A stretch of DNA of 52,325 bases from NCBI GenBank assembly GCA_944325085.1, contig CALUYT010000008.1, forward strand, positions 1 to 52,325, in the 5' to 3' direction. The position numbers were made by a program, and so were the translations under genes. Of this stretch, positions 26,332 through 42,361 are shown in pieces; position 1 is the first letter of the stretch, and the number at the start of each line of letters is the position of its first letter. Source of the stretch: Candidatus Gastranaerophilales bacterium (GTDB lineage Bacteria > Cyanobacteriota > Vampirovibrionia > Gastranaerophilales > Gastranaerophilaceae). The notes under the pieces are model-generated. The model was not told the origin of the DNA. It worked only from the letters and a program-made list of their open reading frames with translations, and searched no databases.

Positions 26332-28059
26332 TTATCGAACATTTAATATTTTATTTCCTGTAAAGTTTTTATTGTTTAGAAATGCTCTATTTTCTGGTGT
26401 TAGCATATTATCAGTTTGAGGTATTTGTTCTTCAACTTTTGCACTAGCATTTTCGTTTGCTTTTTGTGCTGCTTTTTTAGCTTCAAGTTTATTTGTTATA
26501 TAAATATTAAGTCTTGGAATTCCTACACCTAAAGCTAATGCAGAGTATGCGTATCCGGCAAGTTGAGCTATAGATAATATTTTTAATTGTTTTTTAGCAG
26601 GGCTGTTAGCAGGTAGGGCTTTCATCATTTCTTTGAAGCTTAGTGCTTTTCCGTCTTTGAAAACCTTATCTCCTAATGCTGCGTGAAGAACTTCATCTCT
26701 TGTTTTTAGTACGGAGTTTGTAATCCATTTAAGAGTGCCTTCTCCATCTTTTTTGATTAATGATTTATCCATACTTTGAGCAACTAATTTTTGTACAAAG
26801 TTTCCTAATATTAACCAACTTGCAAATCCTAGGGTATCTTTTATTGTAGATTCTCTTAACTCATTGTCGTTTCTTGAAGATAAGAATCTTGACATAATTG
26901 TTATACCGTAGATGAATTTGAATTGTTTAATTGTTGGAGTGAAGCCTTTAAATTGTAAGTTTTTAATAAGTTCTTTTGGCTTTCCTATTGTAGCTAAAAC
27001 TCCACCACCAAATAATAATGCAACTAAAGATTTTTTAATTTTAAATCCTGTTGATTTATCTTCTTCTCCACCGCCTACAAATCCGCTTTTACCTGTCTTT
27101 TTCTTTGTTAAATACATATTTAAAGGTTGAGCAGATATACCAACAGCAGACGCCATACCTATACCGATTAAAGAGCGTTTTACATTCATTGATTTCATTG
27201 CTTTTAAAAATGCATTTTCAGCTATATCTGCATTTTTATTAATTGTTTCAATGAATGTTTGTTTTACGGTATCTTTATTAAATACTTTTCCTAATTTGTA
27301 AGTGTTTTCAATAATTGAATCTACTGTATAGCGAGAAGTATGAGCTTTTTGACCTTCTTCGGCTACTATTCTTAAGTTGTTTTCAACACCAAGAGAAGAT
27401 GTAATTGTTGCTTTAAGATTTGCAAAACCTTCTTTGCTTATTTTATTTGTATCAGTATTAATTTCTTTTTCTAGGATAGACGCAGCTTTTTCTATATCTG
27501 CATCTTTTATTTTTACCCATTTACCGTTTTCATTTGCACTTAATGCTTCGTATTTTGATAATACTGTCTTTAAGTGTTCATGAAGGATATTTTCAGGTTG
27601 TTTTTGTAATGTATTTTTCCATATTTGTCCTTGTAGATTTAGAGTTTCATCATCTGCAAATATAGAGTTTGCTTTAATGTCTTTATCTCCAAATTTATAA
27701 AGACCGTTAATTCCTGTAGCAAGAACTAATCCGGCAAGTGTTCCATAGGCACCAACTAATGAATGGTTTGCTGTTCCCATACCTTCTCTTCTAAGAGTTT
27801 CAACACCTGCATCAGGGCCTCTACCAAAGTCCGTAATAGTTCTTGGTAAAACCATACAACATAAATCAACCGCATTAGCACCCCAAGCTTGGTTTGTATC
27901 TAAAAATCTTAAAAATAAATCTGCACCACCGCTAAAACTAGGATTTGATTGGTTTTTATATTGAGTTTGGTTATTGTTTGTGAATCCTTTATTTTTGTTG
28001 CTATCTTTCGGTTGTATTTGCTTGATATTTAGTTGTCTAAAGTCACTTTCTACTTTCAT
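26332..28059 (-). CDS. Large membrane-associated protein with SFSG leader motif, unknown (paralog A)
   Basis: A 575-residue protein with no family I recognise. The first 40 residues are polar and Asn/Gln/Lys-rich (QTQYKNQSN), ending in Pro-Ser-Phe-Ser-Gly at 40-44. Then comes GGADLFLRFLDTNQAWGANAVDLCCMVLPRTITDFGRG. Several hydrophobic segments follow (VGAYGTLAGLVLATGI, SLIGIGMASAVGISAQPLN, KSLVALLFGGGVLATIG, LAGYAYSALALGVGIPRLNIYI), separated by charged helices. It is paralogous to the gene just upstream (28085-29788): both have a LPRTxxxxF motif, [SA]AQPxN followed by Lys-rich residues, and NELxExTIxD. No signal peptide. AAGG precedes the ATG. The two genes are 25 bases apart and likely cotranscribed. 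Confidence 0.8.
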   Translation of the reverse strand: MKVESDFRQLNIKQIQPKDSNKNKGFTNNNQTQYKNQSNPSFSGGADLFLRFLDTNQAWGANAVDLCCMVLPRTITDFGRGPDAGVETLRREGMGTANHSLVGAYGTLAGLVLATGINGLYKFGDKDIKANSIFADDETLNLQGQIWKNTLQKQPENILHEHLKTVLSKYEALSANENGKWVKIKDADIEKAASILEKEINTDTNKISKEGFANLKATITSSLGVENNLRIVAEEGQKAHTSRYTVDSIIENTYKLGKVFNKDTVKQTFIETINKNADIAENAFLKAMKSMNVKRSLIGIGMASAVGISAQPLNMYLTKKKTGKSGFVGGGEEDKSTGFKIKKSLVALLFGGGVLATIGKPKELIKNLQFKGFTPTIKQFKFIYGITIMSRFLSSRNDNELRESTIKDTLGFASWLILGNFVQKLVAQSMDKSLIKKDGEGTLKWITNSVLKTRDEVLHAALGDKVFKDGKALSFKEMMKALPANSPAKKQLKILSIAQLAGYAYSALALGVGIPRLNIYITNKLEAKKAAQKANENASAKVEEQIPQTDNMLTPENRAFLNNKNFTGNKILNVR

Positions 28060-28084: not shown

Positions 28085-29788
28085 TTAACTATAGAAATTT
28101 TTAAAGACCTTTGAGTTGTCTTTTATTAAGTTTTGGGTAAATGTTGTTGTTGATGTTTTATTTTGTGCATTAGCATTTGCTAATTCTTGTTGTTGTTTTT
28201 TCTTATTAACTTGTGTTCTTGTATATATTGGAATAAATATACCTAGTGAAATTAGAGAGAATGCTAAGTTACCAAATTGGCATATAGCTCTTAAATTTTT
28301 AGCTTTTGTTCTTAGAGCTTCATTAGCTATTGCTCCAAGTTCATCTGTAGATTTCATTTTTGTATGTTTTGCCCAGTTCCAGAATTTTTGGAAAGCATTA
28401 GTACCTTCTTGGGTATATAATTTATTTGTTAATACAATTCCGTCTTTATTATGTTTTTCAAGGAATGTTGCAATACCTTTTGCCGCATAATCTCCCAAGA
28501 AATAGAAGCTTGAGAATGTTGCGATATCACGAATTGTGTTTTCTTGTAATTCATTTGAATCTTCTGCGGCTGCTAAACGGCTAGAGAATGTTGCAGCGGA
28601 GATAATTCTTGCTTGATCCATTGTAGGGAAAATGTTTTTAAATTGGAACATTTTTAAGCTTGGTCTATCCATTAACATAGATAAACCAGCAACTCCCCAC
28701 ATTAAAGGTACTGCTATAAATTTTTGAGCAGTTAATTTTTTCTTTTCTTCAGGTGTAAGAATTCTTTCTTGGTCGTCGTTATAGATAGGCGCCCCTTTTC
28801 TTCCTGAAAGTTTGTGAGTTATCCATCTGTTAATTGGTTGAGCCGTAATTGCAAGTGGTATAATTACTCCAAGTCCTGCAAGGCTCTTTGCGTTAACTAG
28901 TTTTTTAGCTTTTGAGAAGTATTTACCTAATGTATCAAATGATTCTTTTGTCATTTGATCGTTAATGATACCTTCTTTAACTGCACCGTGTAGTATATCT
29001 CCTGCACTTTCGCAAAGGTGACTAAGGTTGCTAGAGAAGAATTTACCATCTTTAGTTTCGTCTATAAATCTAATGTTTTCTGAAATTCCTGTTTTTTGAA
29101 CCATTAAGTTATAAAGCTTTGAACTATAATGTTTTTCAGGATTTTCTTTTAAGATATCTTGGGTCATTTCTCTTAATGCTTTTTCATAGTCCGCATCATT
29201 TGCCAAGATTTCTTTAAATTTTTTCAAGCCATTATTTTTTATATCTCCGTTAACACCTTCAAGGTTGTCAAACATTGATCTTAGAGTGTTATAAATTTTT
29301 TCTTCTTTTGTATTGCCACCAGCATTATTGAAATGTTTTTCAATATGATCTAATGTATCTCCGTTAGCCCAGCTTTTTGTAAGATTAGATCCTTTGAAAT
29401 TTCCCATTATAGGTCTGTTTAATAGTTTTGCAACTCCTATAACGACATAACTAGGAATTAAACAGTTAATTAATAGACCAGAAAATTCACGTCTAAATGC
29501 TTCAAATCCACCAAGCAAATTCAATTTTCTTTGGTGTGTTTCGTTACCATTTTCGTCTTTTTGTTTTGAGCCTATAAATGTTTCGAAAAACGTTCTTGGT
29601 AAAATTGCTGTTGATAAATCAAGTACAGCGACATTTATCATTGGTTTTTCTTCACATTTTTGGATACCCTTAAGTACCAAGCTTCCTACTCCAGTGAAGC
29701 TGGTTTGACCCTTGTTTGGTACATTTACATATCTATTCGGGGTTCCTTTTTTGCTATTTACACTACCTAATTCAACTTTATTAATCAT
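28085..29788 (-). CDS. Large membrane-associated protein with SFTG leader motif, unknown (paralog B)
   Basis: A 567-residue protein, paralog of the downstream gene. A 29-residue polar leader ends in SFTG (30-33). Conserved points shared with its paralog are LPRTFFETFIG (versus LPRTITDFGRG), a GGFEAFRREFSGLL segment (versus AGVETLRREGMG), ITAQPINRWITHKLSGRKG (versus ISAQPLNMYLTKKKTGKSG), FPTMDQARII..SRLAAAEDSNELQENTIRD (versus FTPTIKQFKFI..SRFLSSRNDNELRESTIKD), and a C-terminal hydrophobic helix IPIYTRTQVNKKKQQ. Hydrophobic stretches suggest membrane insertion, but there is no classical signal peptide. A promoter candidate is at 29822-29850; no clear ribosome site. Function unknown. Confidence 0.8.
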   Translation of the reverse strand: MINKVELGSVNSKKGTPNRYVNVPNKGQTSFTGVGSLVLKGIQKCEEKPMINVAVLDLSTAILPRTFFETFIGSKQKDENGNETHQRKLNLLGGFEAFRREFSGLLINCLIPSYVVIGVAKLLNRPIMGNFKGSNLTKSWANGDTLDHIEKHFNNAGGNTKEEKIYNTLRSMFDNLEGVNGDIKNNGLKKFKEILANDADYEKALREMTQDILKENPEKHYSSKLYNLMVQKTGISENIRFIDETKDGKFFSSNLSHLCESAGDILHGAVKEGIINDQMTKESFDTLGKYFSKAKKLVNAKSLAGLGVIIPLAITAQPINRWITHKLSGRKGAPIYNDDQERILTPEEKKKLTAQKFIAVPLMWGVAGLSMLMDRPSLKMFQFKNIFPTMDQARIISAATFSSRLAAAEDSNELQENTIRDIATFSSFYFLGDYAAKGIATFLEKHNKDGIVLTNKLYTQEGTNAFQKFWNWAKHTKMKSTDELGAIANEALRTKAKNLRAICQFGNLAFSLISLGIFIPIYTRTQVNKKKQQQELANANAQNKTSTTTFTQNLIKDNSKVFKNFYS

Positions 29789-39871: not shown

Positions 39872-39900
39872 AAAAAATCCGGCAATAAGCCGGATTTTTT
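39872..39900. terminator. Bidirectional terminator overlapping a stop codon
   Basis: AAAAAATCCGGC (39872-39883) pairs with GCCGGATTTTTT (39889-39900) around AATAA. It stops pnp, and its right end overlaps the TAA of the convergent 820-residue gene (39899-39901). Confidence 0.9.
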
Positions 39901-42361
39901 ATTTCTTCTTTTGATAAACTTCATCAAGTGCTTTTAATTGTTCAAATGTATAGTTAAATGTTCTTTGTTGGAGTGGATCCATTACTTTAGCCATTTTCAT
40001 ATATAGTTCGTATCTTCCAGCCGTTAAGTTCATTTGATGTCTATTTATTATTTCTTTTGTTAAAATATTTGTTAAAATTGGAGTTTGAGAAGCGTCTCTT
40101 GATAACATATCATTTAGCAAGCTTCCCATTAGTTGTTCAAATTTCTTTTGTCTGATTTCTGGAGTAAGTTCTTTGTTTAATAAGCTTCTTGAGTATCTAT
40201 ATTCAGGAAGTAGAACTTCTAATGCATTTCTTAAGAATTTCTTTTCAAATTTGAAATTGTTTGTCATTTCTTTTAGCATAATAATAGTTTCAGTATCATC
40301 AGAGTTTAATGAACTTTTGTTTCCTGTGTATTTAGATAATTCATCTAACATTGCAAGTCCAATTTTATTAAGTTCACTTTTAGATAATGGCGTATTATAT
40401 TGTGCATAAAGTTTATTTATGTCATTTTTATTTTTTTGTATTAAGTGATGGAGTACGTGTGTTACCTCGTGGTCTTCTGGTAAATGATTGTAATCATCTA
40501 CGTTCAGGTCATAGATATTTAGAGGTGTTTTATTTTTTAGATTAAGTGCAATTGTATCTGCAATTGCTGCTTTTGCTGAAAGTGTTTCGTTGTAGTGGCG
40601 TAGCATAAATTTATAATTTAATTCTATAAGTGCATTTTCTAATTCGTCACTTGTCATAATTCTGTCATCATCAATCATATGTGCAACTTTTTTGGTTGCT
40701 AGTGATAATTTTAATTTTTCATTTATTTCAGGGTTTGTTGACATATAGCGTTTGTAGAGTGCGCCATATGAAGTTGGGAATAGTTTTATTTCATTTTCAA
40801 GATTTGTTCTAAATATTTCATCTAAGTTTCCTGTTATTATTATGTCTTCGCCATCTTTACCGTGCAGTTTATATATATCTGCATTGTATTTTTCTGCTGT
40901 TTCTTTTAGTAATTCTGTTGAAAATTCAGGGTTAAGAGCTTTTACGCCTTTTAATTCTTCTTCTAAATCTTCATCTATTTCATTTTCTGCAACGGTTACT
41001 TTATCAGGTTCACCATATCTTTCTATAAAATGTTGATCCCATAATTTTTGTAATTCATCGTGTTCAATATTTCTTTTTTGTCTTTCTGTTTCGATATTTT
41101 GGCTGAATTGTAATAAGTTATAAAATTCAGGAGTTACATTATCTATAATATCTTGGTTTTCAGTTTTTGAAGTTACCATTTCTAAATCTTTGTTTATTGG
41201 AATAAGTCCTCCTGCGCCATATGTTTCTTCAAATAACTCTATAGTATCTGGGATTATTTTTGCGTATTCTTCTAAAATTTGAGGGTTAGCTTTCCAAAAA
41301 CGTTCAAACATGTGTTCTTCGTTTGATATTTTCCCATTTTCTTTTTCTATTTCGTTAAAATATCTCATTTCTTCAGATAAATGTACTCTATCTGCAGCTA
41401 CTGTCATGATTGGACTCATATATTTTGTTATAAAAGACGCTTCAGGATCATCTTTTGCAAATCTTTTTCTGATTTTTGCACTTATGACATCCGGAGTCCC
41501 TTTTGAATTTTTTATATCATTTGATAGTTGGTCTTTTTTAAATTTTTGAATTCTATATTTTCTATGAGCCGGTTTTTGAGGTTTTTGAGTGTTATTTTCT
41601 ATATTATTTTGTTTGTTGTTTTTATTTTTAAAGTTTTCAAATTGTTCGCGATTTGGATCTACCATATTTTTTGGTAATGTTATGAAAAACTTTTTGTATT
41701 CTTCTCTTGTTGCTATGAAGGATTGCCAAAATTCATTTTTAGGATATTTAATACCATAAGCTGATGTTGTATCATAATTTATTGGTTTTGTAATTATTCC
41801 TTTGTATTCATCATTTATGTCTTTTTCTAAAAAGTCTTTTGAAATTTCTTTAATGGTTTTGCCTTCTAAGTATATTTTCTTTAATAAATACATTCCAAGA
41901 TCATCACTTCCATCTTTAAATAATGGGGCATCGCTCATTTCTTTTGCCATTTTTATTTCGGCAAGAACTGAGGTCTTATTTTTTTGTCTGTTTTGATGTA
42001 GATTTTGGAATAGTTCTTCGTTTGGATAAAGACTTTTTACATCTGAAAAATTATTTGCATCTTTTAAGTATTTAAAAACTTCTTGCATCATTTGCTCAGG
42101 TGGAATGTGTTGTCTTTGTTCGTAATCATAATATAGAAATTTTTTCATTGTAGAAGGCATATTTTCTCTGTTAAAATCTTGAGCGTAAAAGTCTTCTGGT
42201 GTACGACCTGAAAAAGATATGTTGTAATCTATGTATGCAAAGTTTGTTTTTAGTTGGGGGGTAGTTGGGTTTGCTAAAGTGTTTTGGGGTTCTTTATTAT
42301 TTTCAATAGTGTGTATATTGTTTAGATTTGTAGAAATGTATTTAACAGGTGTTATTTTCAT
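39899..42361 (-). CDS. Large protein with SFSG leader motif and HEVTH motif, unknown
   Basis: An 820-residue, highly charged, mainly helical protein I do not recognise. The first 48 residues are polar (Asn, Thr, Pro, Lys, Gln) and end at SFSG (49-52), the same arrangement as the two proteins at 26-30 kb. A Lys/Asn/Gln-rich linker lies at about 245-275. His631-Glu-Val-Thr-His635 fits the HExxH zinc-protease pattern (PEDHEVTHVLHHLIQ), though no clear third ligand is evident. There is no signal peptide and no strong membrane helix. AAAGGA precedes the ATG. Its stop lies inside the pnp terminator. A role as an effector or cytoskeletal/structural protein is possible but unsupported. Confidence 0.8.
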   Translation of the reverse strand: MKITPVKYISTNLNNIHTIENNKEPQNTLANPTTPQLKTNFAYIDYNISFSGRTPEDFYAQDFNRENMPSTMKKFLYYDYEQRQHIPPEQMMQEVFKYLKDANNFSDVKSLYPNEELFQNLHQNRQKNKTSVLAEIKMAKEMSDAPLFKDGSDDLGMYLLKKIYLEGKTIKEISKDFLEKDINDEYKGIITKPINYDTTSAYGIKYPKNEFWQSFIATREEYKKFFITLPKNMVDPNREQFENFKNKNNKQNNIENNTQKPQKPAHRKYRIQKFKKDQLSNDIKNSKGTPDVISAKIRKRFAKDDPEASFITKYMSPIMTVAADRVHLSEEMRYFNEIEKENGKISNEEHMFERFWKANPQILEEYAKIIPDTIELFEETYGAGGLIPINKDLEMVTSKTENQDIIDNVTPEFYNLLQFSQNIETERQKRNIEHDELQKLWDQHFIERYGEPDKVTVAENEIDEDLEEELKGVKALNPEFSTELLKETAEKYNADIYKLHGKDGEDIIITGNLDEIFRTNLENEIKLFPTSYGALYKRYMSTNPEINEKLKLSLATKKVAHMIDDDRIMTSDELENALIELNYKFMLRHYNETLSAKAAIADTIALNLKNKTPLNIYDLNVDDYNHLPEDHEVTHVLHHLIQKNKNDINKLYAQYNTPLSKSELNKIGLAMLDELSKYTGNKSSLNSDDTETIIMLKEMTNNFKFEKKFLRNALEVLLPEYRYSRSLLNKELTPEIRQKKFEQLMGSLLNDMLSRDASQTPILTNILTKEIINRHQMNLTAGRYELYMKMAKVMDPLQQRTFNYTFEQLKALDEVYQKKK

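Follow-up and report, generated by a model that had tools for sequence, protein, structure and literature searches.

An N-terminal [S/N]FxG leader on unrelated proteins of Gastranaerophilales, a candidate export or sorting signal

Three proteins (P0001, P0002 and P0003) encoded on the 52,325-nucleotide stretch of Candidatus Gastranaerophilales DNA analyzed here (the window, which is contig C8 of a 1.887-Mb assembly in 65 contigs) each begin with a polar leader ending in SF[S/T]G. We find that this leader is a real tag, present on many unrelated proteins of the window's own family and, to some extent, elsewhere in the order. Its features would best suit a dedicated role in export or targeting, and we tentatively favor the view that it acts across Gastranaerophilales as a two-part N-terminal export or sorting signal, most likely for a filament-less flagellar-type type III secretion system. 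Literature searches turned up no report of an [S/N]FxG leader motif. The tag matters because these relatives of cyanobacteria are uncultured, widespread gut bacteria whose means of acting on their surroundings are little known. Being readable from sequence, it would immediately give a list of exported or co-localized proteins, amounting to about 3% of the open reading frames (ORFs) examined, and would make many genes of unknown function amenable to testing as a class.

A recurrent leader on unrelated protein bodies

In each of the three window proteins the motif lies at the residues given in a preliminary description of the window (Table 1). As stated there, all three leaders are polar and lack a signal peptide (no N-terminal hydrophobic segment was found), and P0001 and P0002 are paralogs, with 25-26% identity, while P0003 gave no BLASTP match to either. 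The leaders of P0001 and P0003 are predicted to be disordered. In the AlphaFold models, the predicted local distance difference test score (pLDDT) is below 50 over residues 1-49 of P0001 and residues 1-51 of P0003 (30-36 over residues 1-50 of the latter, then 77 and above); in both, the motif marks the start of the fold. As the P0001 model is modest (mean pLDDT 65) and the P0003 model better (mean 78), only the disorder was taken from them.

We examined 1.295 Mb of the 1.887-Mb genome (69%; 1181 simple ORFs) for the tag. Within residues 1-60, SF[ST]G occurred 16 times, where its frequency in the rest of the proteins predicts 1.37 (Poisson P = 2e-12). It was borne at the N-terminus by 14 proteins; in 2000 shuffles that preserved composition, the number of such proteins averaged 1.4 and never exceeded 6, so that none attained the observed count. 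Permuted orders of the motif's four elements reached at best 7 N-terminal carriers, and a looser pattern, [STNACVP]F[STKRQ]G, was found in 47 proteins against a shuffle mean of 15. A search for a C-terminal partner motif gave a weak excess near C-termini only. Chance matches in AT-rich, Asn-rich disordered N-termini may explain two of the 14 strict carriers (C9:25827 and C13:81519), as expected, leaving about 12 that look like true tags; as an account of the whole pattern, chance is refuted by the shuffles, by the weaker enrichment of permuted motifs and by retention of the motif in orthologs, and we give it next to no credence.

After removal of the first 62 residues, the window's two paralogs were the only ones among the 14 proteins to match one another, so that about 13 independent bodies carry SF[ST]G; this comparison rules out descent of all carriers from one family. 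The codons of the motif vary at all four positions, which points to selection on the protein and rules out an element acting at the nucleotide level. The enrichment over shuffled sequences and the mostly unrelated bodies thus bear out the preliminary description, but the motif that it proposed, real and enriched as it is, proved too narrow: position 1 may be S, N, T, A or C, position 3 may be T, S, K, Q or R, and the final Gly is replaced by A, S or K in some families.

To describe the layout we used a hand-picked list of about 37 carriers. These were chosen partly for a polar leader and the absence of a hydrophobic run, so neither property is independent evidence when seen among them. Carriers have an M[KRQN][IV] start, then a linker rich in Asn, Gln, Ser and Thr, and then [S/N]-F-[T/S/K/Q]-G; one 14-residue leader reads MRVDSVSRVSFSGK. 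The start and the leader composition depend less on how the list was made. The M[KRQN][IV] start was found in 49% of the 37 and in 7% of all ORFs, a figure partly biased because this start was preferred in the few carriers with an uncertain start codon. Residue 3 is I, V, L or F in 25 of 37, against a background of 28%. Leaders are high in Asn (18% vs. 7%) and Gln (8% vs. 3%) and low in Glu (2% vs. 6%), Ala and Leu, a composition to which the selection of polar leaders contributes and which resembles that of type III signals. None of the 37 has a hydrophobic segment beginning within residues 1-35, as compared with 262 of 1135 ORFs, again partly by selection. Type III substrates likewise begin with 20-60 disordered, polar residues and no Sec signal. 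The carriers do not fit a type IV prepilin signal, in which a hydrophobic helix of about 20 residues follows the Gly: the residues after FxG are mixed or polar when read by eye.

Only three groups of carriers match one another. Bodies with a family match comprise two Amidohydro_2 proteins, a 4-alpha-glucanotransferase (amylomaltase), an alpha/beta hydrolase and a DSP/tyrosine phosphatase, together with a second glucose-6-phosphate isomerase-like protein (PGI-2, by NCBIfam), a 1383-residue neopullulanase-like protein (c37) and, by a weak match, a glycosyltransferase-like protein (c07). Many of the remaining bodies are unknowns, helical proteins among them.

In four families with orthologs (P0001, P0003, the amidohydrolase and PGI-2), the motif is kept while the linker drifts. 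Across the 13 sequences of the P0001/P0002 family, only M1, F42 and G44 are invariant before residue 65. The P0003 family has the consensus [SN]F[TSG][GA]R, in which F50 is invariant in 28 of 28 members and the Gly is therefore not absolute. Amidohydrolase homologs show SFSG, SFTG, SFKG, SFRG, NFNG, NFKG, NFGG or YFTG after linkers of differing length, with the motif adjoining or nearly adjoining the enzyme's first conserved strand. PGI-2 shows SFSG, TFSG, KFTG or NFSG and has lost the motif at one locus (L147). Several homologs of the tagged amidohydrolase have in-frame stops (L155, G171, G177, G074, G195, G212), as if the gene were decaying in some species. Outside the source genome's own family (f1 in our labels f1-f9, where f9 is the outgroup), we read 200 kb of one f6 genome, which held about five carriers, and 200 kb of one f7 genome.

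Several carriers have untagged counterparts. The canonical PGI is untagged in the genomes whose PGI gene was examined, as against the tagged, divergent PGI-2; a second amylomaltase, on contig C43, is untagged; and c09 has an untagged tandem paralog. Tagged amylomaltase and amidohydrolases are distributed patchily among genomes, like accessory genes. One f8 homolog of the tagged amidohydrolase (L173) has, as judged by eye, a Sec signal peptide where the leader would otherwise be. A PGI of family f4 (L108:1054-2691, G033) bears an unrelated long N-terminal extension with no SFxG within its first 80 residues.

The flagellar-type export apparatus of the order

Our searches for secretion systems covered type III genes only. 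All of the 146 Gastranaerophilales genomes tested gave an FlhA-family match, two of them having only a weaker, partial type. In each of six f1 genomes examined, FlhA and FlhB are each present as a single full-length gene. Flagellin (PF00669) gave no match in the source genome and five other f1 genomes, compared with 5-9 matches in f2, f3, f6, f7 and f9 genomes. In genomes of f3, f6 and f7, as in those of the outgroup f9, flagellins are accompanied by two full-length FlhA genes, and a second, flagellar-like FlhA is retained in some f1 genera.

In the source genome, one operon holds FliE, FliF, FliH and FlhA (by Pfam) and FliG (by similarity). FliI and the rod proteins FlgB, FlgC and FlgF/G-like were recognized by similarity, and FlhB has an intact NPTH. 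FlhA, FlhB, FliI, FliE, FliF and FliH were thus found of the export core, in a search that did not include FliP, FliQ or FliR. Gut members are known to have partial flagellar gene sets, from which loss of motility was inferred and which have been read as leftovers (PMC4040986, PMC3787301). We suggest that the remaining gene set may be a working export machine.

A filament-less flagellar-type export operon and rod genes lie at L009:4993-10878 and G000:C7:47675-49938. A stand-alone, soluble paralog of the FlhA cytoplasmic domain (FlhA-C; about 493 residues) is encoded at L047:17960-19441 (G000:C42); it matches FHIPEP 309-653 and has an N-terminal part of its own. This paralog type was seen in ten Gastranaerophilales genomes examined and in neither of two outgroup genomes. 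One genome with flagellins also has a second flagellar-type system, at G035:C1:28473-55019 (L182-L183), which includes genes for rod proteins, FlgE/FlgD-like hook proteins and an FlhA-C paralog.

Possible roles of the leader

Early (rod and hook) substrates of the flagellar type III system combine a hydrophobic N-terminus with a docking motif, and how the two are placed relative to each other matters (Bryant et al., 2022, PMC8983047). That such a pair at a suitable distance exports these substrates is the reason why we take a flagellar-type signal as the leading model. In this model the leader would open with a short hydrophobic start, M[KRQN][IV]; a spacer of about 5-55 polar, disordered residues would then lead to a docking motif anchored by its Phe, [S/N]F[T/S/K/Q]G, at the beginning of the folded body. 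The receiver would be the filament-less apparatus (FlhA, FlhB, FliI, FliE/F/G/H and rod proteins), and the tagged enzymes and helical proteins would be secreted or surface substrates. Tag and early flagellar substrates are alike in placing a hydrophobic extreme N-terminus, a spacer and a small hydrophobic docking motif all on the substrate. They differ in that the carriers are enzymes or unknown helical proteins rather than rod or hook subunits and in the docking motif itself. The flagellar gate recognition motif is FxxxPhi, and we reject its identity with the tag, as a hydrophobic residue (L/I/V/M/F/Y/W) occupies Phe+4 in only 9 of 37 carriers. Thus the leader would work like a flagellar signal without being one.

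Export of such cargo has a precedent in Chlamydia, in which amylomaltase and other glycogen enzymes are exported by type III secretion (Gehre et al., 2016, PMC4829429). The tagged sugar-polymer enzymes, amylomaltase included, resemble those of Chlamydia, which bear type III export signals; there, however, the machine is an injectisome and the host is intracellular, whereas here tagged paralogs stand beside untagged counterparts and their export would follow from the model. We found no description in PMC4829429 of a sequence motif shared among the secreted enzymes, and type III export signals have been described as lacking a common peptide sequence (PMC8983047). If the tag serves the flagellar-type apparatus, it would therefore be a consensus-bearing type III signal, unlike those of other type III systems. 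The tag also resembles Sec signal peptides in being N-terminal and recurring on unrelated proteins, but differs in its polar, Asn-rich leader without a hydrophobic core. Buchnera, a non-motile lineage, keeps filament-less flagellar basal bodies with export core and rod. To our knowledge no tagged substrate class is known there; the filament-less export core and rod are common to both, while Gastranaerophilales have in addition the lineage-wide tag, with its putative link to the apparatus. A wider version of the model, in which the filament-less machine has become a general secretion device for cargo addressed by the consensus tag (hydrophobic start, spacer, [S/N]FxG) and including duplicated sugar-polymer enzymes, a phosphatase, hydrolases and large helical proteins, seems to us conceivable but rather doubtful.

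Several observations weigh against recognition of the tag by the flagellar-type apparatus and the exit of tagged proteins from the cytoplasm, besides the scarcity of hydrophobic residues at Phe+4. Neither a physical nor a genetic connection of the tag to the apparatus was found, the tagged genes do not cluster near the apparatus genes, and the system's own rod proteins lack the tag. FlhA-family genes occur in every genome of the order tested, so co-occurrence cannot discriminate. The f7 genome has a second apparatus, yet only one or two carriers were seen in the 200 kb read. The comparison with a Sec signal peptide rests on a single homolog (L173). A few carriers have extra FxG copies, in flexible internal stretches or towards the C-terminus, which is unexpected for a purely N-terminal signal. 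As nothing we found ties the tag directly to the apparatus, we put our confidence in the flagellar-type signal a little short of an even chance.

The same extra copies in flexible regions are typical of docking motifs, and the leader may instead keep proteins inside the cell at a shared scaffold or hub, such as a granule, a compartment or an assembly attached to the membrane; its Phe would sit in a pocket, the linker would be the tether, and sugar-polymer enzymes would be brought together with helical proteins. Several tagged bodies are indeed sugar-polymer enzymes with untagged counterparts (PGI, amylomaltase), c37 and c07 are tagged too, and in 5 of the 37 carriers a hydrophobic segment lies close to the C-terminus. 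The strong N-terminal bias of the motif argues against intracellular docking, as does the Sec signal peptide of one homolog, which suggests an outside location; neither a scaffold nor a compartment was identified, in searches that did not extend to shell or encapsulin families. We consider this explanation rather unlikely. Export by a different or unknown secretion route would draw on the same leader evidence and gains from the undemonstrated tie to the flagellar-type system; to us it appears improbable. A similarly low probability attaches to the leader being a propeptide removed by a protease that recognizes S/N-F-x-G. The motif does lie exactly at the predicted boundary of disorder and fold, where a processing site would be expected. 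However, the residues flanking the Phe are diverse (S, N, T, A, C or Q before it; T, S, K, Q, R or N after it), many P0003 homologs have Ala for Gly, and c24 has a second copy of the motif inside. The fixed residue is the Phe, throughout the 28 P0003-family members, with the preceding residue and the Gly free to vary. Of the earlier proposal that a leader with a fixed motif on unrelated bodies marks a targeting or cleavage tag, the observation itself holds (the leader recurs on many bodies, its motif is conserved in four families and it is predicted to be disordered), and a role in export or targeting would fit best; nothing was found that points to cleavage, no candidate protease having been looked for.

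Window proteins and additional tagged loci

Coordinates of the three proteins and their parts are collected in Table 1. Pfam searches of P0001, P0002 and P0003 gave no match above cut-off, PDB fold searches of P0001 and P0003 gave none at E <= 0.001, and a profile of the P0003 family matched no PDB sequence.

Table 1. Positions in the window of the three leader-bearing proteins and of their parts.
Feature	Coordinates	Strand	Basis or remark
P0001, whole ORF	26332-28059	-	
P0001 leader, residues 1-40 (MKVESDFRQLNIKQIQPK...NQSNP)	27940..28059	-	translation, family alignment, AlphaFold
P0001 putative first signal element M[KRQN][IV], residues 1-3	28051-28059	-	
P0001 motif SFSG, residues 41-44	27928..27939	-	F42 and G44 invariant in 13 family members
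P0001 body, helical with hydrophobic stretches, without Pfam family	26332..27927	-	
P0002, whole ORF	28085-29788	-	
P0002 leader, residues 1-29	29702..29788	-	translation, family alignment
P0002 motif SFTG, residues 30-33	29690..29701	-	SFTG, SFQG or NFTG in orthologs
P0002 body, paralog of P0001	28085..29689	-	
P0003, whole ORF	39899-42361	-	
P0003 leader, residues 1-48	42218..42361	-	translation; AlphaFold disorder
P0003 motif SFSG, residues 49-52	42206..42217	-	F50 invariant in 28 homologs
P0003 body, helical, matching no known family or fold	39899..42205	-	

Orthologs of P0001 (window:26332-28059) also have a conserved NFTG near the C-terminus, and the internal copy in c24 (L036:2023-4170) is an AFTG that follows a flexible linker. 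A cluster of tagged genes at G000:C9:29865-36020 comprises PGI-2, a member of the P0001 family, a short ORF starting MTEISFGS and the carrier c06.
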